Below are positions 4,478 through 29,564 of a stretch of DNA of 40,771 nucleotides, one piece after another. The stretch comes from Gemmatimonadales bacterium. GTDB taxonomy: Bacteria; Gemmatimonadota; Glassbacteria; GWA2-58-10. The notes under the pieces were generated by a model, which saw only the letters and a list, made by a program, of their open reading frames with translations, ran no database searches and had not been told where the DNA came from. The stretch lies in assembly GCA_024278175.1 (NCBI GenBank), contig JAJRTS010000094.1:1-40771 (forward strand), read 5' to 3'. The first letter of the stretch is position 1, and each line of letters begins with the position of its first letter. The position numbers and the translations under genes are program-made.

Positions 4478-5677
4478 CTATTCGCCCTGCTCCACGAATA
4501 TCTCCCAGACCTTGCCGTTGTAGTCGGAGGCCAGCAACAGCACCGGGATTGACGCCGGCTCGTGCTTGGGCCCGGTGATATCGTTCACATCTGTCACCGG
4601 ACCCAGCAGCCGCACGGGATCACCCACGGTCCGCAGGCCGTCCGGGGAGAAATGCTGCAACAGGATCCAGTTGGGACGGTTATATTTCTGGTTGGCGCCG
4701 TAGGCCGTATAGGCCACCGCCGGGTGGTTTCCCAGCCAGAGCGCGATCGGTCGCGAGGGCTCTGCGATAGCGCTCAGCGGGGCGAAATCCACGTTGATCC
4801 ATTCCTGCTCTGCGTTGAGCACACGCGCCGCCAGCAGCGGTTTGCCTGGTTCGTCCAGGCTGGTCTTGGTGGCGGCGAACAGGCGCACCGCCCCTCGTTT
4901 CCCGCTCCCCGGCTTACAGAAATTGAGATGGTCGTCGGCGGTCTCGTTTCCGCTGGCCACCGTGTCGGGCGCGGACCATTCACCCGCGGGCGCGCCGTCC
5001 TGGTGACGGCTGAAAAGCACCTGCTCGGTGCTCTGGTTGCTCCACAGCACTCCCATCGCGCCGTCGGTGTTCACTATCACGCAGATATCGTCGCGATATA
5101 CGTCGTCTGTCAGCACCACCGGCGGGCCGAGCCTGTTGAGCTCCGGCGGGAGCATCCGGGTCACTATCCGGCGCGTATCCGCGCTGTCTGCGGGGTAGGC
5201 GAGCCAGAAAAGGCCAGCGCTGTCGCGGTCCACTGTCACGGTTTCGATAGTGCCGGTTTCCTTCACGGTCAGCGGCGGCGCTTTGAGCAGGTAACGGTTG
5301 TCCTCCCGGCTCCAGAGAAGCGAGACTACCGCCAGGCGGTTATCCTTGCACAGCGCGGCCACCACCAGGTCGCCCGCCGCGTAGACATCGGCCTGGCCCG
5401 GCAGGGATTTAAGAGCTTTGGTCAGGTGCTGCTCCACGCTCCACTGACCGTTATCATCGCGCCGCCACACGTTGCTGCCGCCTCCGCCCCAGGGCAGCCA
5501 GGCCCACCAGTGCCCGGCCGCGAACCAGACCTTGCTCTGAGGTTTGTCCGCCGTGGGTTCGTCAAGATAGCACTGCATTACAGGCTCTTCCTTGCTCAGC
5601 AGAGCGCCGACAGCACCGGGTAACGCAAAAACGCACAGGACCAGCAGGGTCAATAATCGAACCGGTAAACGCGACAT
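4478..5677 (-). CDS. Secreted protein of unknown function
   Basis: A 399-residue protein with a clear Sec signal peptide (basic start, then LLTLLVLCVFALPGAVGA, about residues 7-24). The mature part is rich in Trp, Gly and Asp and in short hydrophobic strands, consistent with a mostly beta, possibly propeller-like fold (for example WWAWLPWGGGG near residues 52-62 and repeated strand patterns such as AGLFWLAYP). I recognise no family. The ATG at 5677 is chosen because GGAGG precedes it by four bases; the frame is open further upstream, but that would bury the signal peptide. It is divergent from the tandem propeller operon that starts at 5914, so the two may share a control region and an extracellular process. 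That link is inference. Confidence 0.7.
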   Translation of the reverse strand: MSRLPVRLLTLLVLCVFALPGAVGALLSKEEPVMQCYLDEPTADKPQSKVWFAAGHWWAWLPWGGGGSNVWRRDDNGQWSVEQHLTKALKSLPGQADVYAAGDLVVAALCKDNRLAVVSLLWSREDNRYLLKAPPLTVKETGTIETVTVDRDSAGLFWLAYPADSADTRRIVTRMLPPELNRLGPPVVLTDDVYRDDICVIVNTDGAMGVLWSNQSTEQVLFSRHQDGAPAGEWSAPDTVASGNETADDHLNFCKPGSGKRGAVRLFAATKTSLDEPGKPLLAARVLNAEQEWINVDFAPLSAIAEPSRPIALWLGNHPAVAYTAYGANQKYNRPNWILLQHFSPDGLRTVGDPVRLLGPVTDVNDITGPKHEPASIPVLLLASDYNGKVWEIFVEQGE

Positions 5678-5913
5678 CGAACCTCCGGGTAAACGTAGTT
5701 TGAAGACAAGAGCGGATTGACACGCCGGAACGCGGAGTATAGATTCTTGATTCACAGGCATTAATCCCGCCGGCATCATAATCTATACCCTGTGCTTGCG
5801 AGTGACAATAGGAGTAGTTGGAGCCCGCCGTTTGTATTATTATTTAACAGATCATTATTGAAAAAGTGAAAATATATTAACCAGCTTCCGCACCGAACAA
5901 CAGGAGTCGGCCG

Positions 5914-7143
5914 ATGAGAGTAATAACCGGAATCATGCTGCTTGTTTTGGCAGCCATCCCGGCGGGGATTTCGTCCGCGGCGGAAATCAGCGCGGACAAC
6001 ATCAGGTTTATCGAGTACCCGAACTTTCCCGACGCCCACTCCACGTGGGGCTCGATAGGCTACAGCAGCCAGCACGACAAGGTGTTTATCGGCGTTACCA
6101 ACCATCGCGACAAGGTGGGACTCTACGAGTACGATGTCGCCGCCGACAACATCCGCCTGCTGGGGTTCCTGCCCGAGCTGGCCCACCTTCGCCCGTGGCA
6201 GTGGCAGGGCAAGATCCACAGCCGGATAACGGAGGGTCCCGACGGGGCGATGTATTTTTCCACCGATGGGGGCGAGAGCCGCGAGGAATTCCTGATGAAC
6301 CATCCCCAGGGTTACAACGGCGGCTATTTCATGCGCTGGGACCCGGCCGGGAACAGGTTCACCAACCTCGGCAACGGTCTGCGCTACGAGAGCATCAAGG
6401 ATATAACAATCGACCGGCTGAACGGTAACCTGCTGGGGATTTCCTATCCCCAGGGCCACCTTCTGCTCTACGATCAGGAGCGCAACGACGTCCGCGACCT
6501 GGGCCGGGTGGCCAGCGACCACATCCCCAGGGTGCTGTTCAGCGACAAGTTCGGCAACATGTACTACGACGACTGGCGGCAACGGCTGGTCAAGTACGAA
6601 CACGACACCCGGCAGTTACTGTTCAACCCGGACTCGGTGGCGATGTTCGCCAATACCCCGGGCTACCGGATAATAACCGGGATCACCGGGTTCGCCGAGG
6701 ACAAGCAGACCGGTCTGATCTACCTGGTTACCTACAGCTCCAAGCTGATCGCTTTTTATCCGAGCCGGCTGGGTTTCGGCAAGATGGTGGACCTGGGCGG
6801 GGTGTACGACGGGGACAAGGCGCCATACGACTACTACTGCCCAAACCTGTCGCTGGGGGCTAACGGCAAGCTCTACTATTTTATCGGCGGGCACGGGAAG
6901 TACGCGATCAAGGACCAGACCGTGCTGATGGAGTTCGACCCGCAGACGCGCACAAAGCGGATCGTGCTGCGTTTCCCGCTCGATACGATCAGTGAGGTCA
7001 CCGGCCACGGGGTGGCCGACAGCGTGGGTAACCTCTATTTCTGTGGCCGCCGCCGCGCCGCGGGCGCCGTGGATGTGGGCGAAAGCGGGGCCAGCCGGCC
7101 GTTTATGATCATCTTTAACCCCACAAGGGCGATTGACGGATGA
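5914..7143 (+). CDS. Exported beta-propeller protein, paralogue A
   Basis: A 409-residue protein with a Sec signal peptide (about 1-23, ending SSAA). The mature chain has repeated blade-like units in which a Gly/Asp turn precedes a short strand (GPDGAMYFST, FGNMYYDDW, NGKLYYFIGG, VGNLYFCGRR), as in SMP-30/NHL/streptogramin-lyase-type propellers. Conserved histidines occur in TNHRDK, the HLRPWQWQGK region, MNHPQGY and SDHIPR. The C-terminus carries CGRRRAA and GESGASRPF. An AGGAG lies seven bases before the ATG. The stop overlaps the next start in an ATGA, implying translational coupling with the second paralogue. Role unknown: periplasmic or extracellular sugar lyase, lactonase or binding protein are all possible for this fold. 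Confidence 0.75.
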   Translation: MRVITGIMLLVLAAIPAGISSAAEISADNIRFIEYPNFPDAHSTWGSIGYSSQHDKVFIGVTNHRDKVGLYEYDVAADNIRLLGFLPELAHLRPWQWQGKIHSRITEGPDGAMYFSTDGGESREEFLMNHPQGYNGGYFMRWDPAGNRFTNLGNGLRYESIKDITIDRLNGNLLGISYPQGHLLLYDQERNDVRDLGRVASDHIPRVLFSDKFGNMYYDDWRQRLVKYEHDTRQLLFNPDSVAMFANTPGYRIITGITGFAEDKQTGLIYLVTYSSKLIAFYPSRLGFGKMVDLGGVYDGDKAPYDYYCPNLSLGANGKLYYFIGGHGKYAIKDQTVLMEFDPQTRTKRIVLRFPLDTISEVTGHGVADSVGNLYFCGRRRAAGAVDVGESGASRPFMIIFNPTRAIDG

Positions 7144-8366
7144 AGCTGCTTCTTACACTAATGGCCCTGGCGGCCCTCGTCCCGCCGCCGGCGGTTACTG
7201 CTGCTCCGATTACGATGAACAACGTAAGGTTTGTCGAGTACCCGGACTTTCCAGACGCCCACAGCACCTGGCGCTCAATCGGCTACAGCACCCGCCAGAA
7301 CAAGGTTTATATCGGCGTCACCAACCATCGCGACAAGGTGGGGCTCTTCGAGTACGACGTGCCCACCCGGGCGATCCGCCTGCTGGGGTTCCTGCCCGAG
7401 CTGGCCCACCTTCGCCCCTGGCAGTGGCAGGGCAAGGTCCACTCGCAGATTCTCGAGGGCGCGGACGGCAAGATGTATTTCGCCACCGACGGGGGCGAGA
7501 GCCGCGAGGAATACCTGATGAACCACCCCCAGGGCTATTACAGCGGGCTGCTGCTGCGCTGGGACCCGCGGGCCGAAATCCTGGAGCAACTGGGCACGGG
7601 CCTTCCCAACGAGAGTATTAAGGATATCGCGCTGGATAATGTGGGCGGGCTGGTTTACGGGGTCAGCTACCCGTCGGTGCACCTGCTGCTCTTCGACCCC
7701 GGCAGCAACTACCTCCGCGACCTGGGCCGGGTGGGCAGCGACCACGTGCCGCGCTGCATCTTCAGCGACCGCTGGGGCAACGCCTATTACGTGGACTGGC
7801 GGCAGCGGCTGATAAAATACGAGCGCGACACGGGACGACTTCTGTTCAGCGAGCAGAGCATACAGTGGTTCCCGGGCACCACCGGGGAGCAGATAATCAC
7901 CGGCATACCCACCTACGCCACCGACACGGAGCTGGGCATTATCTACCTGATCACCTACAGCAACATGCTGGTGGCGTTCCGCCCGCAGAGGCGGGGGATC
8001 GGGGAGATCGAGATCCTGGGGCCGACCGTGGACAGCGACAAAACGCCGCCACCCGGTTATTCGCCCAACAGCGCTTTCGCAGACAACGGCAAGCTGTACT
8101 ACTTTGTCGGTGGGCACAACCGCTATGTGGTCAAGGACACGACGCTGCTGATGGAGTTCGACCCCGTTACGGGCAAGCGGAGAGTGGCGCTCAAGTTCCC
8201 GCTCGACGTGGTCAGCGAGGTGACCGGCTGCGACGTGAAAGACGCACAGGGGAATCTCTATATCTGCGGTCGCCGTCGCGCGGCCGATGCCCAGGACATG
8301 GGCGAGAGCGGGGCCAGCAGGCCGTTTCTGCTGATTTTCAATCCGGATAAAGACATAAGGGAATAA
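7140..8366 (+). CDS. Exported beta-propeller protein, paralogue B
   Basis: A 408-residue protein with a signal peptide (about 1-22, ending VTAA). It aligns with the preceding protein over its full length without large gaps; by eye well over half the residues are identical, including TNHRDKVGL, the PELAHLRPWQWQGK block, GGESREE, MNHPQGY, RDLGRV, DWRQRL, and the C-terminal CGRRRAA and GESGASRPF. This is a tandem duplication. The N-terminal signal regions and a few loops differ most, which suggests the copies have begun to specialise. The ATG overlaps the upstream stop by 4 bp. The two products may act together or as a heteromer, but nothing in the sequence proves this. Confidence 0.75.
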   Translation: MKLLLTLMALAALVPPPAVTAAPITMNNVRFVEYPDFPDAHSTWRSIGYSTRQNKVYIGVTNHRDKVGLFEYDVPTRAIRLLGFLPELAHLRPWQWQGKVHSQILEGADGKMYFATDGGESREEYLMNHPQGYYSGLLLRWDPRAEILEQLGTGLPNESIKDIALDNVGGLVYGVSYPSVHLLLFDPGSNYLRDLGRVGSDHVPRCIFSDRWGNAYYVDWRQRLIKYERDTGRLLFSEQSIQWFPGTTGEQIITGIPTYATDTELGIIYLITYSNMLVAFRPQRRGIGEIEILGPTVDSDKTPPPGYSPNSAFADNGKLYYFVGGHNRYVVKDTTLLMEFDPVTGKRRVALKFPLDVVSEVTGCDVKDAQGNLYICGRRRAADAQDMGESGASRPFLLIFNPDKDIRE

Positions 8367-8414
8367 ATCATTTCTGCCGACAACCGCGATACTGTCAAAC
8401 CAATGGAGGAGCCG

Positions 8415-9626
8415 ATGCTCAACAGGCTGCTGTTGCTTAGCGCCGCTTTGTTGCTGTGTGCCGCGCAGGCGCGGGCGGAGTACACATTTTTCACGCCCGA
8501 GGGTGCTTTCGCGGTGGAGGTCTCGCTGGAGAACCCGGGGCCGCGCCTGCGGCTGCCGATTTACCGCAACAGGATCACCTCGCTGGCCGCCCAGGGCGAC
8601 TGGGCTATCGGTGGAACCACGGCGCAGGAGGGCCTCAGCCCGTTCCTGTTCGCCGTAAGCCTGAGCGCTCAGGAGTTGAAAGTGGCCCATGACCTGACCG
8701 CCGACATCCCCGGTCAGCGGGCGATCAGGAGCGGATTCGGCCGGGTGGGCGAGGCCCTCTATGCCGGGACGATCGCCCAGGGCGAGGGAGCCGGGGGCCA
8801 TCTGATTAAAACAACGTTCAACGGTAAAGAATTTGCTGTCGAGGACCTGGGGATACCGCTGGAGGGCGAGGGTATCTTCGCCCTGACAGCCGACCCGGAG
8901 CGCCGGATGCTCTACGGGATCAGTTTCCCGCACGGCAAGTTTTTCAGCTACGAGATCGCCTCCGCCCGGGTGAAAGTGTTTGACGAGACCGCCATAACCA
9001 AAGAGCAGCACGGCTATTACCATCGCTACGCCCTTACGGATGAAGACGTGCTCAGCCGGGCGCTGGTGGTCGACAAGCAGGGCCGCGTGTGGGGCAGCCG
9101 TCCGGTGAACCGGATTTTTTACTATGACCCGGCCACGGACAAGCTGGTCACTATCGAGGAAGAGCTGCCCACTGTCTGGGGACGCCGTCCGCTGGGCCGC
9201 GCCGATAGTTGGGCCGTGGCTCCCGACGGGACGATCTACGGCGGTAACGCCGGCGACGGCCAGTTGTTCAGGATTGACCCCGTGAGCCTGCGGGTAAGCA
9301 ACCTGGGCAAGCCGATCATGAGTCCGCGGATGCCGGGGCTGGCGTTCGGCGCGGACGGCCGCCTGTACGGCATCGCCGGGGCGCTGCCGGGATACGCGCA
9401 CTTTTTCGTCTACAACACCGCTTCCGGCGACTATATCGACCTGGGCAATCCCCGCGTGCCGCTGATCGTGCCGGAGGTGGACTCGGAGTTCCCGTGGAGG
9501 GGTTTCCAGATCGCCACGGTTACCGCCACCCGGGACGGCAAGTATATTCTGCTGGGCGAGGATGAGTCGCTGAGCCAGTTGATCGTGCTGCCGGTCGATG
9601 GTGCGCCCGCGCAGCAGTGGCCGTAA
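8415..9626 (+). CDS. Exported beta-propeller-like protein, divergent third member
   Basis: A 403-residue protein with a Sec signal (LLLLSAALLLCAAQARA). Blade-like repeats are visible: RRMLYGISFPHGKFFSYE, QGRVWGSRPVNRIFYYDP, DGTIYGGNAGDGQLFRIDP, DGRLYGIAGALPGY. It shares the blade grammar, and the SYP/SFP-x-H/G motif, of the two upstream proteins but not their C-terminal signature. The ATG at 8415 is preferred over one at 8403 because GGAGGAG lies three bases before it. It follows paralogue B after 48 bp and is followed by a strong terminator, so all three are likely one transcription unit. Function unknown; the run suggests export of related carbohydrate-active or signalling propellers. Confidence 0.7.
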   Translation: MLNRLLLLSAALLLCAAQARAEYTFFTPEGAFAVEVSLENPGPRLRLPIYRNRITSLAAQGDWAIGGTTAQEGLSPFLFAVSLSAQELKVAHDLTADIPGQRAIRSGFGRVGEALYAGTIAQGEGAGGHLIKTTFNGKEFAVEDLGIPLEGEGIFALTADPERRMLYGISFPHGKFFSYEIASARVKVFDETAITKEQHGYYHRYALTDEDVLSRALVVDKQGRVWGSRPVNRIFYYDPATDKLVTIEEELPTVWGRRPLGRADSWAVAPDGTIYGGNAGDGQLFRIDPVSLRVSNLGKPIMSPRMPGLAFGADGRLYGIAGALPGYAHFFVYNTASGDYIDLGNPRVPLIVPEVDSEFPWRGFQIATVTATRDGKYILLGEDESLSQLIVLPVDGAPAQQWP

Positions 9627-9674: not shown

Positions 9675-9729
9675 CTGTAGGGGCGGCCCATGGGCCGCCC
9701 TTTTTTAGAGAGGGATCCCGTGCGTCCGG
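9675..9729 (+). repeat. Interspersed repeat, copy 2, overlapping the terminator
   Basis: It begins CTGTAGGGGCG (9675) and ends GTGCGTCCGG (to 9729), the same ends as the element at 4281-4310 on the other strand. Its middle is about 25 bp longer and includes the palindrome that serves as the terminator of the propeller operon. Confidence 0.5.
9681..9706 (+). terminator. Strong Rho-independent terminator of the propeller operon
   Basis: A perfect 20-bp palindrome (9681-9700, arms GGGCGGCCCA and TGGGCCGCCC) followed directly by six T residues (9701-9706). It lies 54 bp after the third propeller gene. Confidence 0.85.
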
Positions 9730-15784: not shown

Positions 15785-15981
15785 TTTTTCGGATCAGCAT
15801 AATGTGATAACCGCATTAGATACATAATCTGCTATTGTTCTCCAATATCCATCAGCTATTCATGCGCGCAAGACCAACCCGCCAGGATAGTGAACCCGGC
15901 GAATGAGGGTAATAACGTGGCTGAAAATAAAAACGGCGGCGCCGGTGTACTGGTTTTTGGTCCCGGAGTTGTTCGTCACGC

Positions 15982-16009
15982 GTCTCGCTTGCGAAAGCAA
16001 GCACGAGAC
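15982..16009. repeat. Hairpin with GNRA loop after maf
   Basis: GTCTCG and CTTGC (15982-15992) pair with GCAAG and CGAGAC (15997-16009) across a GAAA loop, with a two-base bulge. It lies just past the end of the maf gene. No T run follows on either strand, so it is not a standard terminator; it may stabilise the 3' end of the dtd-maf mRNA. Confidence 0.4.
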
Positions 16010-16013
16010 ACGG

Positions 16014-16625
16014 TCAACTCCATTGCAACGGTCCGAACGGGTAGGCAATCCCGCGCTCGGCCAGTATCCGTACCAGCCGCGCCAGCGGCAGGCCCATCAC
16101 GTTGAAATAGCAGCCGTCCACTTTTTCCACCAGCGTGGCGCCGTAGCCCTGAATCCCGTAGGCTCCCGCCTTGTCCAACGGCTCCCCGGTTGCCACGTAG
16201 TGCCTGACATCCTCCTCGTCCAGCTCACGGAATTTGACCCGGGTAACCTCGAACACGCTCCGCACCCGGCAGCCCTCGGGGCCGGCCAGGGCCACGCCGG
16301 AGTAAACCTCGTGACTGCTGCCTGCCAAGCGGCGCACCAGTTCGCGGGCGTGAGCGGAATCACGGGGCTTGCCCAAGATGTCGCCGTCGTGGAAGACAAT
16401 CGTATCGGCCCCCAGCACAACCGAGCCGGGGTAGCTGTCAGTCAGTGCCAGCGCCTTGCGCTCGGCCAGGGTGCACACGTGCGCACCCGGCTCATCCGGG
16501 ACGCCGATCGTCTCGTCCACATGGGCGGGCAGTACGGTATGCTCCACGCCGATCAGGGTCAGCAGCTCGGTCCGTCTCGGGCTGGCGCTGGCCAGGATCA
16601 GGTGGGGACGCGTATTGTCGCTCAT
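16014..16625 (-). CDS. maf: Maf-family nucleotide pyrophosphatase (dTTP/UTP type)
   Basis: A 203-residue Maf/HAM1-type house-cleaning enzyme. The N-terminal loop ASASPRR (12-18), GADT (72-75) and DKAGAYGIQG (151-160) are all present. The last motif is typical of the YhdE-like dTTP/UTP pyrophosphatases rather than the YceF-like m7GTP enzymes. It hydrolyses modified or canonical nucleoside triphosphates to the monophosphate in the cytoplasm. It starts 17 bp after dtd on the same strand, so the two quality-control enzymes form a small operon. The start has GAGG about 11 bases upstream. Confidence 0.92.
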   Translation of the reverse strand: MSDNTRPHLILASASPRRTELLTLIGVEHTVLPAHVDETIGVPDEPGAHVCTLAERKALALTDSYPGSVVLGADTIVFHDGDILGKPRDSAHARELVRRLAGSSHEVYSGVALAGPEGCRVRSVFEVTRVKFRELDEEDVRHYVATGEPLDKAGAYGIQGYGATLVEKVDGCYFNVMGLPLARLVRILAERGIAYPFGPLQWS

Positions 16626-16642
16626 CTTTATGTCTGCCTCGC

Positions 16643-17080
16643 TCAGCGTTCGATTATCAGGGTAACAGGCCCCTGGTTTACCAGCTCCACGTCCATCATC
16701 GCCCCGAACCGCCCGGTGGCCGTTTCCACGCCGGCCTCGCGCAGCAACTCCACGAACCGGTCGATCAGCTTCTCGCTCACCGCCGGGTCTCCGGCTTTGA
16801 TGAACGAGGGCCGACGGCCCTTGCGGCAGTCGCCGTAGAGGGTGAACTGGCTGACCACCAGAATCGCGCCGCCCACATCCGCCAGCGAGAGGTTCATCTT
16901 GCCCTGATCGTCGGAGAATATCCGCAGGCCCACGCAGCGGTTGACCATCCAGGCCAGGTCCTGCCCGCTTTCCTCACCGTGCATCGCCACCAGCAGCATC
17001 AGCCCTGTGCCGATACGGCCGGTCGTTTCGCCACCGACAGTAACCGCGGCCCTGCTCACTCTCTGGACCACAACTCGCAT
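16643..17080 (-). CDS. dtd: D-aminoacyl-tRNA deacylase
   Basis: A 145-residue protein, the normal length for Dtd. The start MRVVVQRVSRAAVTV, the catalytic SQFTLYGD (77-84), and the NQGPVT motif (135-140) that gives the chirality filter are all present. It removes D-amino acids (and glycine) from mischarged tRNA. GGAG lies upstream of the ATG. It is the first gene of a dtd-maf pair. Confidence 0.95.
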   Translation of the reverse strand: MRVVVQRVSRAAVTVGGETTGRIGTGLMLLVAMHGEESGQDLAWMVNRCVGLRIFSDDQGKMNLSLADVGGAILVVSQFTLYGDCRKGRRPSFIKAGDPAVSEKLIDRFVELLREAGVETATGRFGAMMDVELVNQGPVTLIIER

Positions 17081-17267: not shown

Positions 17268-18812
17268 CTAGGCAGGTTTTTCAGCGGAATCTTTCGCGGC
17301 GTCTTTGGGCGGTTCCTCTTTTTTCTGCTCATTCTGCTTCTTCTCACCTCCGGCCGCCTGGGCCTTGGCCGGTGCCGGCGCGCCCTTGCCGGTTTTTTTA
17401 CCGCTGCCGGCCGTCTTGTCTTTCCCCTTACCGTTGTCTTCAGCTTCTTTTTCCCTGCCCCCACCCACCGCACGCTTGATATCGTCGTAATAATCGTCGT
17501 AGAACGCGTTGAGCTTGGGCGTGAGCAGTTTGCAGCGGTGGTATTCCCCGGTTCCCAGTTCACCGAGGCGCTGGATCAGGTTCACCGCCCGCACGGAAAG
17601 CTCCAGGAACGGACACTTGGTCACTTTTTTATTACAGACGAAAATTGTCGGGCTGTAGAGGCCGGTGAGCGGATAAGGGACGGCCGCCTCATAGGGACAT
17701 TTTTTTGTCAGCCGGTCGAGTTCGGAGTAGAAGTCAAATATATCGGTTAGTTCCAGGCCCAGCGTCAGCGCGTTTACCGCCCGGTCGTTAAGCTGTTTTT
17801 CCATCAACCGAATATTCATGTAGTCGACAATGTCTTTGGTGGACGCGCTCTCTCCGAACAGCCCGTCTTCCCGGCGCAGGAACATCTCGGCGACCACCAG
17901 AATGTTGGCCAGCGTCGCGTTGTTTTCCTGGCGCACGAAATCCCGCTCGGCTTTCTGCCAGCCGCACATCAGCTTGTAGGCTTTAAGAACGTCGTCGCCA
18001 AGATCGTATTTCTGCAGGTTGGTGATATTCTTCTGGATCGATTCCCAGTATATATTCTGCCGTTCCTCCTGTTGCGCCTTGATCACCCTGTCGCTCTCCA
18101 TCACCGCACCCCAGTTATGAAACAGACCGGTGATCAGAATCTTAGGCAAAATATCGGAGCGGTCCTTGAATATCGAGTCGAACTGCTGTGAGCAGGCGAT
18201 CGCAGCACTGAAAATACCGGTATTCAGCGCATGGTCTGCGAAAAAGATGGCCCGTTGATTTTCGGCGAACTCACAGACGAATCGCATGCGGAACAACTCC
18301 AGCGCGATCTCGTTACGGTCCAGGACTTTATCGGTCAACTCATCGAACATGGGCGTGAGATTGCGCATCAGCTTTTTGAACACGACCGCTTTCTGGCGGG
18401 AAAAAAACAGGCTCTTGATTTTTTCCTTGAGGCTCTTGCGCAGGCCGTCCATCAGCTTGGGTGACGACTTGATGAGAATGTTGAAATCCATCTCGGGATT
18501 GGATTCCCTGAATTTCAACAGCCGGCTGATTCTTTCCCAGGAGAGTTCAGTGTCTTTGGGGTAAAGTACCGTGCCCTTGTCGGAGCGAAGGTCGTCGGCC
18601 AGCTCGATTCCACTGCGCAACGACTGGGTGTTGATCGGATGGAAGTTGCTGAACTTGAGCATCGCGTTAAGGCCGCCGATCCGGATCGATTCGGCCTCTA
18701 CCACGAACAGGCTGCTGAGGTCCACCTGTTTATCTTCAGCCACGTGATATCCCGCGATAAAGGGGTACGAAATATTGTCGCTTACAGCAGACAGGGCGGG
18801 CAGTAAAACCAA
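17268..18812 (-). CDS. Protein with degenerate HD-GYP-like core and Lys/Ala-rich tail
   Basis: A protein of up to 514 residues. No standard family is certain. Residues 64-113 (LRSGIELADDL, then GTVLYPKDTELSWERISRLL) resemble the N-terminal region of HD-GYP phosphodiesterases, and 193-235 (ADHALNTGIFSAAIAC, then ILITGLFHNWG) match the HD helices, but the metal HD pair reads His232-Asn233 and no GYP motif is visible. So it may be a catalytically dead sensor or scaffold. Four Cys in the C-terminal third (KKCPYEA, FVCNKK, TKCPFLE, YHRCKL) could bind metal. Residues after about 450 are very rich in Lys, Glu, Ala, Pro and Gly and are probably disordered. The first codon is a TTG without a clear Shine-Dalgarno; Val24 (GTG) or Met51 may be the true start. 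Confidence 0.55.
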   Translation of the reverse strand: MVLLPALSAVSDNISYPFIAGYHVAEDKQVDLSSLFVVEAESIRIGGLNAMLKFSNFHPINTQSLRSGIELADDLRSDKGTVLYPKDTELSWERISRLLKFRESNPEMDFNILIKSSPKLMDGLRKSLKEKIKSLFFSRQKAVVFKKLMRNLTPMFDELTDKVLDRNEIALELFRMRFVCEFAENQRAIFFADHALNTGIFSAAIACSQQFDSIFKDRSDILPKILITGLFHNWGAVMESDRVIKAQQEERQNIYWESIQKNITNLQKYDLGDDVLKAYKLMCGWQKAERDFVRQENNATLANILVVAEMFLRREDGLFGESASTKDIVDYMNIRLMEKQLNDRAVNALTLGLELTDIFDFYSELDRLTKKCPYEAAVPYPLTGLYSPTIFVCNKKVTKCPFLELSVRAVNLIQRLGELGTGEYHRCKLLTPKLNAFYDDYYDDIKRAVGGGREKEAEDNGKGKDKTAGSGKKTGKGAPAPAKAQAAGGEKKQNEQKKEEPPKDAAKDSAEKPA

Positions 18813-18967: not shown

Positions 18968-21025
18968 TCAAAGCTCCGTTCCCGCCCAGCGGGCCACGCG
19001 CTCCGGCGGTGCGGCGGTGGCGCGCATCAGCTCATCCGGGCTCTCCGAGCGCGGGCTGGCCCACACGGCCGCCACCAGCACCAGGCCGGTTCCTGCTTCC
19101 AGTTCCGCGCTAACAGAGGCCTGCATGGCGCGGGCGTGGAAACTGTTCAGGTCCTCGCGGCCGCGGAAACCGGCCAGCGGCCCGCTGCCGGTAAAGCCGG
19201 AAACTGAGCGGATGAACACTGCGTTGCCGCTGCTTTGTGCGCGGCCCCATTGCCAAAGTTTCCCGCCGGCTGTTTCCGGCCGCTCGTCCGCGCCGAGTCC
19301 CAGGGCGTAGGTGTGCTCGGCGGCGACAATCTTCCCGTCGCCCCCGAAACTGACCTTGTGGGCGCGCCACTGGATTTCCCCGTCGATCAGCACCATGCTC
19401 TCCACGTCGATTTTTTTCTCGCCCAGCAGTGCGCTCCATTTCCACTCCAGCATCTCGCCGCCAACGACCCGTCCGCTATAGGGAGTGTCGCGGCGGGCGT
19501 AGTTGCCGGAGCTGTCGGTAAAACTGAGTGCGCAATCGGGAGCCATCAGGTTATCGGCCAGCTCCACGTTGAACGGAAAGTGGCTGGAGTAGGAGAAGTT
19601 ATAATACTTGGCGCGGTAGTACCCGGGCTTGTCGCAGGAGGATTGCCAGAGCTGCACCTGGCCGCTTTTTTTGCAGCCGGCCGCCAGCATCTCCGGTCCC
19701 TGGATAAGGTGGCGGAAATCGTCCTGCTCCACGGGCAGGGCCTGTTCGGGGGCGGTCCAGAACGGGTCGTCGCTCGCCAGGCTGGCCGCGAAAAAAGCCT
19801 GCATACCCCAGTAAGGATGGCCGTTGTTAATATAACTTTCCTTGATCGAGGGGCTGGAATGGGGGGTCATTGTCTCGCGTAACTTGTGGTTTTCGCTGTC
19901 CCATGCCCCGGCCTGCCAGAGAAAGCGAAGGTTGAGGTTGCAGATCCGTCGCAGCAAGCCCGTGTCGTAGGGCCAGAGACCCATCGAGTGGGCCAGCGTG
20001 AGCGGGGTCAGCGTGCCCCAGCGGTAGATCAGCGAACGACCCCACATCACATGGCTGCCGTTGCCGCCGAACAGGTAGGGCGTGGTGCCGAGGAACTGTT
20101 CGAGGCGCGAGCGGAATTTTTGGCGAAGAGCCGGGAAGCGCTCACCGATCACCATGTCCCAGTACAGGTTATGGCTGGCGAACACCCAGAAGTTGTAATA
20201 GTCCCATTGGTCGCCGCTGGTGGTGTCGGTGTACCAGCCGCTGCCGGAGTACATGCTGTCGATTGCCTCGATATCTCCGCGAAACCACTGCTCATCACCG
20301 CTGAACTGCTCCCAGCGCTCGCCCAGCGCCAGCCGCACCGCGTGGTTGACCGCGGTGAACAGGGCCCAGTTGTTACGGCGCACATTTACCTGTGTGCAGC
20401 TTTCCAGCCAGCGCTGGATATTGCGGCGCTCGGCGGGCGTGAACTCGTCCATCAGTTGATCGCGCACCAGCCAGAGGCTGAAAGCCACTATCGAGCTTTC
20501 CACCTGGCGCTGGTCCCAGTCTTTGGGGCTGGCGTATTGCCAGAAATCCCGGCTTTGCGGATCGGTGCCGTGGCGCACGGCCGAGAGGAATATTTTGGCG
20601 GGGTCATAGTTTGTGCCATCCACTTCCAGCTGCAAATCGCCGTCCGGCCCGGCGATAACCGCGGCCAGAGCGGGCATGATCCTGGTCACCGAGTCGCAGG
20701 TATTGCCCCGCGCGGAGATGAAATTGTCAAGCATGGTCCCGCCCGCGTAGTCGCAGACGGCGAACGTATCCGAGGTGCGCACGGCGTTACGCACGAAACC
20801 TTCCAGGATCGTGCCGAGCGTCTGGCCCCACTGCTCCCGCCCCCATCCCGACTGCTCCACGCACCCGGCGGCGATTTCGCTCGGCGGCGGCACGGCCGGC
20901 TGTTGGCGGCTATCGCAACCCAGCGAGGCCAGCATCGCCCCTGCTCCACATGCCGTGGCGCTTTGACCCAAAAAAGTCCTTCGCGAGATATCGTCGCCGC
21001 CGGGCAAGCGGTTTTGATCGGGCAT
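18968..21025 (-). CDS. Tat-exported DUF2264 family protein
   Basis: A 685-residue protein. Residues 13-37 hold a twin-arginine signal (SRRTFLGQ, then a hydrophobic stretch) that ends in SLGC37, a lipobox-like but imperfect site, so it may be a lipoprotein. The body has many Trp and aromatic motifs (NNWALFTAVNHAVRL, GDQWDYYNFWVFA, YWGMQAFFAASL) that match DUF2264, an alpha/alpha-toroid family linked to carbohydrate-active proteins; the C-terminal 200 residues look beta-rich. The reaction is unknown; a role on uronic or other polysaccharide fragments is inference. The ATG at 21025 is used because AGGGAG is five bases upstream; the adjacent ATG at 21028 is an alternative. The gene is transcribed divergently from the RND pump gene. 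Confidence 0.8.
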   Translation of the reverse strand: MPDQNRLPGGDDISRRTFLGQSATACGAGAMLASLGCDSRQQPAVPPPSEIAAGCVEQSGWGREQWGQTLGTILEGFVRNAVRTSDTFAVCDYAGGTMLDNFISARGNTCDSVTRIMPALAAVIAGPDGDLQLEVDGTNYDPAKIFLSAVRHGTDPQSRDFWQYASPKDWDQRQVESSIVAFSLWLVRDQLMDEFTPAERRNIQRWLESCTQVNVRRNNWALFTAVNHAVRLALGERWEQFSGDEQWFRGDIEAIDSMYSGSGWYTDTTSGDQWDYYNFWVFASHNLYWDMVIGERFPALRQKFRSRLEQFLGTTPYLFGGNGSHVMWGRSLIYRWGTLTPLTLAHSMGLWPYDTGLLRRICNLNLRFLWQAGAWDSENHKLRETMTPHSSPSIKESYINNGHPYWGMQAFFAASLASDDPFWTAPEQALPVEQDDFRHLIQGPEMLAAGCKKSGQVQLWQSSCDKPGYYRAKYYNFSYSSHFPFNVELADNLMAPDCALSFTDSSGNYARRDTPYSGRVVGGEMLEWKWSALLGEKKIDVESMVLIDGEIQWRAHKVSFGGDGKIVAAEHTYALGLGADERPETAGGKLWQWGRAQSSGNAVFIRSVSGFTGSGPLAGFRGREDLNSFHARAMQASVSAELEAGTGLVLVAAVWASPRSESPDELMRATAAPPERVARWAGTEL

Positions 21026-21319
21026 CATAGCTCCCTGTTTTATGTTCAATTTTTGTGTGATCAATGGAGGTAGTTGGATTATACAATCGGCCGGGGCAGC
21101 GGACAAGTGGAATGCGGAGCAGGTGCGGGAAATATGTAACCATTGTCCGCCCGGACGTGTATAGTAGTGTAGGTTTCTGTCACAAACATCCATAATCCTT
21201 GACACTAAGCCGGGGAGTCAGCTAGTTGGACTTGCGCGTCCACAAACGCCCGGGGCCTGCCGGCGCGTCTCCCGGACCAATAGCGAGTTGCATTCGACGA
21301 TAACACGACTGGAGCACGG

Positions 21320-24300
21320 ATGAAGATAGTCAAGCTGTCGATTGGCCGGCCGGTGACGGTTACGATGCTGATGGTTACCCTGGTCCTGTTTGGCGCGGTA
21401 GCGTATCAGCGCCTGCCGATCAACCTGCTGCCCGATATCAGCTACCCCACTCTGTCCGTGCGTACCGAGTACGTGGGCGCCGCCCCCGAGGAAGTGGAAA
21501 ACCTGGTCACCCGCCGGATCGAGGAAAGTGTGAGCGTGGTGAACAAGGTAATCCGGGTCTCCAGCCGCTCGCGTCCCGGCCTGAGCGATGTGACCGTCGA
21601 GTTCGAGTGGGGCACGCAGATGGATTTCGCCTCGCTGGAGGTGCGCGAGAAGCTGGACCGCGTCCGCCTGCCGCAGGAGGTGGACAAACCGATCATCCTG
21701 CGCTACGACCCCAGCCTGGAGCCGATCATGCGGCTCGGGCTCACCAGCGATGAGATCGATCTGATCGCCCTGCGTACGCTGGCCGGACAGCGGCTGAAAA
21801 ACCGGCTGGAGACAATCGACGGGGTGGCGGCTATCGAGGTCTCCGGCGGGCTGGAGGAGGAAATCCATATCGAGCTGAGCGAGAGCCGGCTGGCCTCGCT
21901 GGGCCTGAGTGTCGATCAGGTGGCCCGGCGCGTGTCGGCCGAGAATGTCAACCTCACCGGCGGCACGCTCACCGACGGCGAGGCGGAATACCTGGTGCGC
22001 ACGCTGAACCAGTACAAAACTCCGGAGGAAATCTCCGAGATTATTATCGAGCGTCGCGGCCAGGCGCTGATCCGCCTCTCCGACGTGGCCACTGTGTCGC
22101 GCTCCTACAAGGACCGCACGGTTATCACCGAGATCAACGGCAGCGAGAACGTGGAACTGGCCGTATTCAAGGAGGCCGACGCCAACACGATCCTGGTGGC
22201 GCGGCGGGTCCACGAGCGCCTGGGCGAAATCCAGCAGGAATTCGGCTCCTCCAGCGGGATCAGGCTGGAAATAATCACCGACCAGAGCCGTTTTATCGAG
22301 CAATCGATCAGCGAAGTGCTTAAGACCGCCATCGTCGGTGGCCTGCTGGCCATAATCGTCCTGTTCGTGTTTTTGCAGCGGGTGGGGGCCACGGTCATTA
22401 TCGGCATGTCGATCCCGATCTGCGTGATCGCCACGTTTTTCTTCATGTACATCTCGGACGTCTCGCTCAACATCATGTCCCTGGGCGGCCTGGCCCTGGG
22501 GGTGGGCATGCTGGTCGACAACTCGATCGTGGTGCTGGAGTCTATCGACCGCTTCCTGCGCAAAGGACATAGTCCGGCGGCGGCGGCCGATGAGGGCGCG
22601 AGCCTGGTGGGCCAGGCGGTTACCGCCTCGACCCTGACCACGATCTGCGTGTTCCTGCCGATCATTTTCGTTACCGGTGTGGCCGGACAGCTTTTTACCG
22701 ACCAGAGCCTTACGGTTACTTTCAGCCTGCTGGCCAGCCTGCTGGTGGCGCTCACGTTAATCCCGATGATGAGCTCCGGGTTCAAGGGCGGGCGCGCGTT
22801 CGGCGCCGACACGCCCCCGGCGGCTTCCGATGGGAACCGGCAGGAGGAAAACCGGCCCCAAAAACGGCCCGGCCCCGGCTGGCTCTACATGCCGCTGGAT
22901 GCTGCCAAGTGGGTGATTAAATCCCTATTCTACTGGCTTTCGTTCCTCCTGCTTTCCGCGCTCAAGTGGACCGGGCTGATCGTGGGCGGGCTGATCAAGC
23001 TGCTGATAACCCCGCTGCTGATCCTTTACCGCGTGGTTTACGGCACTGTGGAGCGGCGCTACGCCCGCCTGCTGCCCTGGGTGCTCGACAACCGCCTGCT
23101 GACAGTTGCAATGGCCCTGCTGCTGTTCGCCTCGGCCGTGATGCTCTACCCTCGCCTGGGTATGGAGCTGATCCCCGAGATGAGCCAGAACGAGATCCAG
23201 GTGGGCGTGAAGATGCCGGTGGGCACGCCCGTGGAGCGTACCCGCGACGCGCTGGCGCGAATGCGGAGAATCGCCATGGGGGAGCCGGAGATCAAGCTGG
23301 TGTATGCTTCCGCGGGCCTGTCGGGCATGGCCGGCGGCGGGCTAAAGGAGCAGCGCGAGGATATCGGCCAGATCAACCTGATTCTCAGCGGCAGCCTCGA
23401 CCGCCAGCAGGAAGACCGGTTGATCGAACGCCTGAGAGAGCAATACGAGCTTATTCCCGGTACCTCGGTCAAGTTCGGCCGGCCGGTGCTCTACAGCTAC
23501 AAGACCCCGGTGGAGTTGGAAATCAGGGGCTACAACCTGGCCACCCTGGAGCGGATCGCCGGGGAGGTCAGCGGGCGGATGCGGCGGATCGAGGGCCTTT
23601 CGGATATCAAGAGCAGTACCGAGGGCGGCAACCCGGAAATCCAGATCTACTTCCGCCGCGACCGGCTGGCCGCCCTGGGCCTGAACCTGAGCGCGATGGC
23701 GGTGGCAGTGCGCGGCAAGGTGCTGGGCGATGTGGCCACCGAGCTGCACAAACTCGGCCGTCAGGTGGATATCCGCGTGCGCGTGGAGAAGCAGGACCGG
23801 GACCGGCTGGAGGATATCCGCAACCTGACCGTGGCCCGGGTCGATAACCGTCCGATTACCCTGGAGGCGGTTGCAGAGCTTAAAGTGGAGCAGGGCCCCT
23901 CGGAGATCAGGCGCGTGGACCAGGAGCGGGTGGCGGTGGTGTCGGCGGGGCTGGCCGGGATCGACCTGGGCGCGGCTATCGAGCGGATCAAGACCGCCAT
24001 GAGCGATATTGCGCTGCCGCCGGAAATCTCGCTTAATTTCGGCGGTCAGGGGCTGGAGATGAGCCGCTCGATGGACAGTATGATATTCGCGATCCTGCTG
24101 GCCGTGTTCCTGGTCTATCTGGTGATGGCCAGCCAGTTCGAGAGCCTGCTGCACCCGCTGGTGATCCTGTTCACGATCCCGTTCGGCCTTGTGGGCGTGG
24201 TCTGGTCGCTGTACGTAACCAGCGGTGTTATCAGCGTGGTGGCCCTGATCGGCGTGGTGATGCTATCGGGAATTGTGGTCAACAATGCAATCGTGCTGGT

Positions 24301-28077: not shown

Positions 28078-29376
28078 TTAGCGGGGCCGGGGGGTTCCGG
28101 GCATCGGCACAGCCCGTTTGGGCGGAGTGGTGCTGAAATGATACTCGGCCGGGGCCAGGTCCAGATCGCTGCTGAGTATCTCTTCCCTGGTCACCAGCTT
28201 ACCGGTGTAGGCGGCCTCGCGGCCCATGATGCACGAGAGCGTACTGTCCACCGCGTAGTCCAGCGCATCGTTACGGGCCTTGTTGTTGCGGATGCTGTCC
28301 TGCAGCGCGGCGTGCTCTAACACTGTGGAGTTGTGTTTCTCGCGGTAGCGGAAGCGGTTCTGGCCGCGGATGGTCTGGTGGCTGTCCGTCTAGCCCAGAG
28401 TGCCGATTACACGGTTCTCGTTCCTGTTCTCGCAGTTGGCGATCTGACGCAGCATGCAGTAGACGTGAATGTCGTTCGGGTACTCGAAATCGACAGACAT
28501 GTGGTCGTAGATGTTGCCGAACTTGGGATCGGTACGCACCTGGCGACCGCCGTTGGCCACCGCGCTGATCGGGTACGCGCCCAGGGTCCAGTTCATCCTG
28601 TCCACCTGGTGGACCACCATCTCGACAATCTGGTCGCCGGAGAGCCAGGTCCAGTAGTACCAGTTACGGCACTGGTATTCCATTGCGCTCCAGCTCGGGT
28701 CGTTGCCGCGATGCCAGAGGAAACCGCCCATGCGATGAATGCTGCCGGCCTTGAACTCGCCGATAGCGCCGTCCTGTGCCCGCTTGATCGTTTCCTGGAT
28801 GGCGGGATCGTGACGCGACTGGAGGCCGACCACCACGCTCAGGCCCTTGTTCTTGGCTTCCTGGGCGGCGGCGCGCACCTTGCGGCAGCCCACCGGGTCG
28901 GTGGCGACAGGTTTCTCGGCGAACACGTTCAGTCCGCGCTTGACCGCTGCCTCGAAGTGCAGGGGACGGAAGCCGGGAGGGGTGGTCAGGATCACGTAGT
29001 CCAGGTCGGGTACGGCCAGCAGTTGTTTCCAGGCCTCGTCGCCGGTGAACATGTGGTCCTTGTCGACCTTGATATTTTTCTGCAGCTCGCCCTGCAGCTC
29101 ACGGGAGCCGGTCTTGAGGGCGTTGAGGCTTTTCTCGATCTGATCGGGCGCCACATCGGCCATCGCCACCAGATCGACACTGCCCTTGCCGGCCTCAAGA
29201 GCGTTGGCGCAGGCGCCGGTGCCGCGGCCGCCGACACCGATCGCACCGATTCTTAATTTATCGCTCTGGGCCCGGCCGGTGCGAACGAACGGAAAAGCGC
29301 TCAGCGCCGTGGCGGCCGCGGCCCCTGCTGTTATAAACTGGCGGCGGGAAAGCTTATTGTTTTCCTGAGTGGACAT
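28078..29376 (-). pseudogene. Tat-exported Gfo/Idh/MocA oxidoreductase interrupted by an in-frame TAG
   Basis: This is a Gfo/Idh/MocA-type NAD(P) oxidoreductase of 431 sense codons plus one internal stop. It has a Tat signal (SRRQFI, about 10-15, with cleavage near GRA36), a nucleotide-binding loop GAIGVGGRGTG (44-54), and the hallmark EKP in NVFAEKPVA. The reading frame is closed at codon 329 (28390-28392) by TAG but continues in the same frame for 103 codons, through RGQNRFRYRE and LDLAPAEYHF, to a natural TAA. A family C-terminus of this kind (ending PVPMPGT-like) is normal, so the stop is inside an otherwise intact gene. Other genes here end in TAG normally, so general recoding is unlikely. 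A single base change from TGG (Trp) would explain it. The ATG at 29376 has AGGAGG four bases upstream. Confidence 0.8.
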
Positions 29377-29564
29377 CATTCCTCCTGCATTGTATGGTAC
29401 GGACTCTTTCGGCGACGTTTTTCGGATAAGTCGGGAAGGCCCGGGACAGGCCGGACCGGTTGAAGGAGAAGCGTCCGGTCCGGCGGTTGGTTGCCGGATA
29501 AATATTATACTAGCTAAAAAGCGGTGGAGCAAGGAATCGTAACGTTAAGCCCGAGCAGGTTTTT

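Follow-up and report, generated by a model that had tools for sequence, protein, structure and literature searches.

The widely conserved unit recognized in this study is an A-type propeller gene followed directly by a T-type gene, and the tandem pair of A and B, by which the locus had first drawn attention, is a duplication at the level of one Glassbacteria family. The three proteins A, B and T belong to an undescribed superfamily built on an ordinary propeller fold, for which known families give no explanation. As a best guess, to which we assign a probability of roughly 0.38, A and B are exported glycan-active or glycan-binding proteins that work together with T as a site-less partner. The genes lie within a stretch of 40,771 nucleotides (hereafter the window), in which the following features were located.

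U, 4478 to 5779, minus strand: divergent neighbour, probably exported, of no assigned family; its orthologues adjoin the unit in genomes G001, G002 and G004.
A, 5914 to 7143, plus strand: putatively exported propeller of 409 aa, seven-bladed in the AlphaFold2 model, carrying the W45/H64/K100/H102/R206 site (ORF, model and conservation).
Stop/start overlap (ATGA) of A and B, 7140 to 7143, plus strand (sequence).
B, 7140 to 8366, plus strand: 408-aa paralogue of A with the same site (62% identity over 393 aa; own orthologue group).
T, 8403 to 9626, plus strand: third propeller of 407 aa, a homologue of A that appears to lack the site of A (hhalign, pairing and model).
Intrinsic terminator 3' of T, about 9679 to 9707, plus strand (fold computation; centroid -20.5 kcal/mol, z -2.4).

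The first-pass annotation of this DNA had described two genes for signal-peptide proteins of 408 and 409 residues that overlap by ATGA and resemble each other over the whole length, and both the ORFs and the sequence agree with this description. The alignment of A with B runs through 393 residues free of gaps (76% similar), and the N-termini of A and B, together with that of T, are hydrophobic and signal-peptide-like; judged from these sequences, all three proteins are probably exported out of the cytoplasm. The 4-nt overlap at the A/B junction is found also in G003, while the junction in G001 and G004 has a gap of +4. The strong terminator noted earlier was confirmed by fold computation as a 10-pair GC-rich stem with a loop of 4, followed by six T, and it was not listed by a simple consensus terminator scan; A, B and T probably form one transcription unit. 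The terminator palindrome was also considered as a dispersed repeat, which was ruled out by its single occurrence in the genome. A PAS-domain protein is encoded downstream of the unit. On the upstream side, at least 135 bp separate the starts of the divergent genes U and A, and U is perhaps co-regulated with A-B-T. U evolves faster than the three propeller genes: its identity is 63% and its dN/dS 0.36, where A, B and T show 78-81% and about 0.2. Its candidacy as a fourth member of the propeller family was dropped after comparison with the A-type profile (hhalign probability 0.6%).

The AlphaFold2 model of A, built on an alignment of 8 sequences (pLDDT 82.5, pTM 0.86), predicts seven four-stranded blades that fill the chain, the last one being closed by the N-terminal strand, with the blade borders read by eye from the DSSP string. 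A propeller is predicted also for T, by a weaker model (pLDDT 77.9, pTM 0.81). The A-type and T-type profiles are homologous (hhalign probability 100 over 336 columns at 20% identity), a match that takes in almost all of T, and T can be aligned with A by BLAST at 25% identity over 119 aa. The Foldseek search of PDB gave as the best match of A the copper oxidase GlxA (4unm; E 1.6e-10, TM 0.59, 12% identity), and for T a group of spliceosomal and other WD-type propellers; the matches are generic propellers of 9-14% identity. The earlier statement that no described family accounts for the set holds good, as no Pfam or NCBIfam model matches A, B or T above its cut-off. A and B are likewise free of sequence matches in PDB, so that no characterised enzyme family was found above cut-off in these three collections. 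The literature on tandem propellers, on PL22 and on virginiamycin B lyase offered nothing that explains the unit.

The distribution of A-type genes was searched by profile in two phyla. They are present in all six sampled genomes of one Glassbacteria family, and each of these six carries the A/B pair, which answers the earlier question of whether paralogue pairs recur. A narrow profile detected no relative in the remaining 389 genomes sampled from the same phylum, and a broad profile none in the other 243 genomes of a sample, the first few candidates per genome being scored in these large samples. Among 168 genomes of Fibrobacteres, A-type genes were found in two, G395 and G562, with several in each. 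Viral contigs searched with the A2 profile, and plasmids searched with B as the query, yielded no relative.

Each strong A-type cluster has a T-type gene immediately behind it and in the same orientation. This was seen at 22 of 22 loci, which belong to eight genomes of the two phyla: G000 (contigs C84, C101 and C50), G001 (C50 and C24), G002 (C34 and C211), G003 (C46 and C590), G004 (C84 and C1), G005 (C33 and C41), G395 (C717, C498, C414, C551, C226 and C274) and G562 (C70, C38 and C50). The pairing holds while sequence identity falls to about 21%. The profile E-values for this pairing are inflated, since the profiles contain the searched sequences themselves; it was single-sequence BLAST that first revealed the pairing. 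In four loci (both of G003, C226 of G395 and C41 of G005) T runs off the contig or comes close to its end, and C50 of G562 shows the order A-T-A. The best loci of Fibrobacteres carry no A/B pair; instead, a single A-type gene is followed by T with a 4-nt overlap, as in locus L035 of G395 (A-type 548-1807, T-type 1804-2964) and likewise in C70 of G562. The distance from A-type to T-type gene ranges from -11 to +77 nt, counted from longest-ORF starts after leaving out two loci with a start too far upstream, and the two ends often overlap or almost touch. A lone divergent T-like gene was found in G562 (C21; L095 6791-8044, plus strand) with no A-type neighbour, together with a few lone propellers that match the profiles weakly; this T-like gene adjoins one for a regulator of GntR type that has a sugar-binding domain. 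The third propeller had been taken as a more distant addition to the pair: it does exist, but the conservation of the gene order across two phyla indicates that T is the constant partner of A-type genes and not an extra.

Comparison of 23 A-type proteins revealed that W45, K100, H102 and R206 are invariant (23/23) and that H64 is conserved in 21. In the model of A, W45 and K100 lie in the blade-to-blade (DA) loops and H64 in a BC loop, while H102 and R206 stand at the start of inner strands. By blade assignment, these five residues together with Y134 are predicted to lie on a single propeller face, that of the DA and BC loops. This anterior face is the one used by most propeller enzymes (PMC8377490). 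The top loops are more conserved than the bottom loops among nine close A-type members (p = 3e-4), and no such difference is seen over all 23 (p = 0.49); the claim of a site thus rests on the specific residues.

The first-pass annotation had pointed to three His-containing blocks, TNHRDK, MNHPQGY and SDHxPR, as a possible metal or substrate site. All three are present in both A and B, but two of the three His are not kept across the family. The His of TNHRDK is H64, whereas MNHPQGY retains its Tyr (Y134, in 20 of 23) and SDHxPR its Arg (R206), in place of the His. The strongest His, H102 in the motif GK(I/V)HS, had been overlooked. A metal site receives no specific support from the conserved set, which consists of H/K/H/R plus W, and was dropped as the leading idea on this ground. 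A cytochrome-like role was dropped as well, since one CxxCH was found among the 23 A-type sequences.

The corresponding positions of 17 T-type proteins, read from an A-to-T alignment of about 20% identity in which single positions may be shifted, are occupied by I, V or L for W45, by His in one for H64, by Lys in one for K100 and by mixed residues, with His in two, for H102. R206 is partly lost only, with Arg or Lys in 12 of the 17. The structural residues G153, P283 and Y270 are largely common to A-type and T-type proteins. As far as the aligned sequences tell, T is an ancient paralogue of A without its conserved site.

The genes surrounding the A/T loci include several of carbohydrate type. 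Sulfatases lie near C50 of G000 and C211 of G002, a 3-keto-disaccharide hydrolase and a Gfo/Idh oxidoreductase near C101 of G000, a GH109-type oxidoreductase near C50 of G000, a GH106-like protein and an AraC-CBM9 regulator near C226 of G395, sugar-type ABC permeases near C498 of G395, and a GntR-type regulator with a sugar-binding domain (GntR/LacI-type) near C414 of G395. Other loci have URO-D-like and M28-peptidase genes (C24 of G001 and C41 of G005) or a glycyl-radical enzyme (C38 of G562). The unit in the window is flanked by genes for an SSF symporter, an SDR, an S41 protease and a PMT-type transferase, and is not a glycan locus. By this neighbour listing, the glycan reading is backed by part of the loci only. 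Elsewhere in the window, about 10-20 kb from A-B-T, a DUF2264 protein (18968-21205, minus strand) and a Gfo/Idh/MocA oxidoreductase (28390-29532, minus strand) are encoded; both families are frequent in carbohydrate loci. Three predicted ORFs of 311, 514 and 450 aa (15903-16838, plus strand; 17268-18812 and 21218-22570, both minus strand) gave no Pfam match at E <= 0.001.

In the reading we prefer, A-B-T would be expressed as one transcript for three exported propellers of one superfamily. A and B would be the ligand-binding and probably catalytic components, with the W/H/K/H/R set on one propeller face. T would be a dedicated site-less partner, and the gene pairing suggests that it most likely forms an extracytoplasmic complex with A, with B or with both. 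The likeliest ligand would be an acidic or otherwise modified glycan, and the likeliest chemistry, if any, a beta-elimination-type reaction by His, Lys and Arg, as in propeller polysaccharide lyases. The lyases of PL24, PL25 and PL42 use His or Tyr together with a neutralising Arg on one face of a seven-bladed propeller (PMC8377490, PMC12915356). Seven blades are predicted for A as well, and by blade assignment its H64, H102, Y134 and R206 would lie on the anterior face; by this analogy a lyase-like mechanism is possible in A and B. A and B do not share the sequence order of the catalytic residues of these lyases, and an A-type gene has as its obligatory partner a gene homologous to it. At E <= 0.1, BNR_4 (PF15892), the match given for PL42/GH145 (PMC8377490), was detected in none of the 23 proteins of A-type and none of the 17 of T-type. 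The same sequences lack both the Asp-box SxDxGxTW (BNR motif) and any match to the Pfam family of PL22 oligogalacturonate lyases. Against a glycan enzyme stand the lack of any family or structure match pointing to chemistry and the several distant loci with URO-D-like, M28-peptidase or glycyl-radical neighbours instead.

A and B might alternatively be non-catalytic propellers for glycan binding or sensing that take up a ligand on their top face and pass it to another protein, with T as a scaffold, much as hybrid two-component sensors use the Reg_prop propellers that they carry in the periplasm. We regard this as a tentative alternative, doubtful but worth keeping in mind. A, B and T resemble the sensor propellers such as BT4663 in their apparently exported propeller repeats and in weak profile matches that are strongest in T: Reg_prop is matched weakly by 5 of 23 proteins of A-type and by 4 of 17 of T-type, the BT4663 sensor 4a2l is matched by the T profile along some 100 residues (E 1.1e-9), 4a2l and 4a2m are among the Foldseek matches, and sugar-responsive regulators lie near some A/T loci. 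The hybrid sensors differ, however, in their fusion to kinase and membrane parts, whereas A, B and T are free-standing single propellers of 409, 408 and 407 aa whose genes encode neither a kinase nor a membrane domain, and both A and B stay below the Pfam cut-off for Reg_prop (B with 19.8 bits against 20.4, and A with no match). In addition, K, H and R that stay invariant at 21% identity would be expected of a catalytic protein more than of a binding one.

It is unlikely that A, B and T are propeller enzymes for small molecules, of the redox, lactone or another kind, with no activity on glycans, the nearby sugar genes being incidental. The best Foldseek match of A is indeed a copper oxidase of galactose oxidase type, weak matches to Kelch, SGL, SSL_N and lactonase families occur chiefly in T-type members, and the neighbourhoods are varied, including URO-D-like and glycyl-radical enzymes. 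Yet the structural matches are those of generic propellers, and A consists of the propeller only, without the additional domain of the copper oxidases (GlxA has 599 residues), and has no Kelch match in Pfam. SMP-30/gluconolactonase and strictosidine-synthase-like propellers are six-bladed. A is modelled with seven blades, and the SSL_N and SGL matches, mostly of T-type proteins, remain below the cut-offs.

The A/B pair is of old origin, and both copies are maintained. In a tree of 15 A-type proteins, A and B of the Glassbacteria family form two groups (support 85/92), with a single origin of the split in 82% of bootstrap trees; as each group holds orthologues from the six genomes, the duplication is older than the divergence of these genomes. 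NG86 estimates between G000 and G001 gave dN/dS of 0.144/0.681 for A, 0.141/0.720 for B and 0.131/0.824 for T, indicating that purifying selection acts on all three genes; with ratios of about 0.2 between genomes of the same genus, they are not chance ORFs. The concern that the pair might be unique to one strain and non-functional is contradicted by its presence in six genomes and by the selection on both copies. A and B are told apart by only four fixed differences (T258P, V272I, Y307G and C309S), and G005 carries an additional copy of A. In-frame stops were seen in the B copy of G005 (TGA; L032 2732-3979) and the T copy of G002 (TAG; L034, about 11318), and the second A-type gene (B) of G002 is interrupted by a run of N (L034 10157-10243); either decay or faulty assembly may account for these. 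A recent redundant duplication without functional weight, kept by drift while the second copy decays, would fit the few fixed differences and the two stops but is very improbable in view of the age of the duplication and the selection on A and B, the stops lying in fragmented MAG contigs where assembly errors are possible.

A more specific version of the preferred reading, which we hold to be rather improbable as a whole, is that this is a propeller enzyme family functional only as an A/T hetero-complex. Such a complex would be an enzyme/pseudoenzyme pair with glycans outside the cell as its substrates, and the A/B duplication of Glassbacteria would have provided two specificities. We found no description in the literature of such an arrangement of a site-bearing propeller with a site-less homologue. 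If A-type proteins are enzymes with an obligatory inactive homologue, the glycan metabolism of uncultured lineages would gain a family, and the unit would represent a clear case of co-inherited enzyme and pseudoenzyme. Genes that family libraries leave uncovered thereby become a defined and testable unit.
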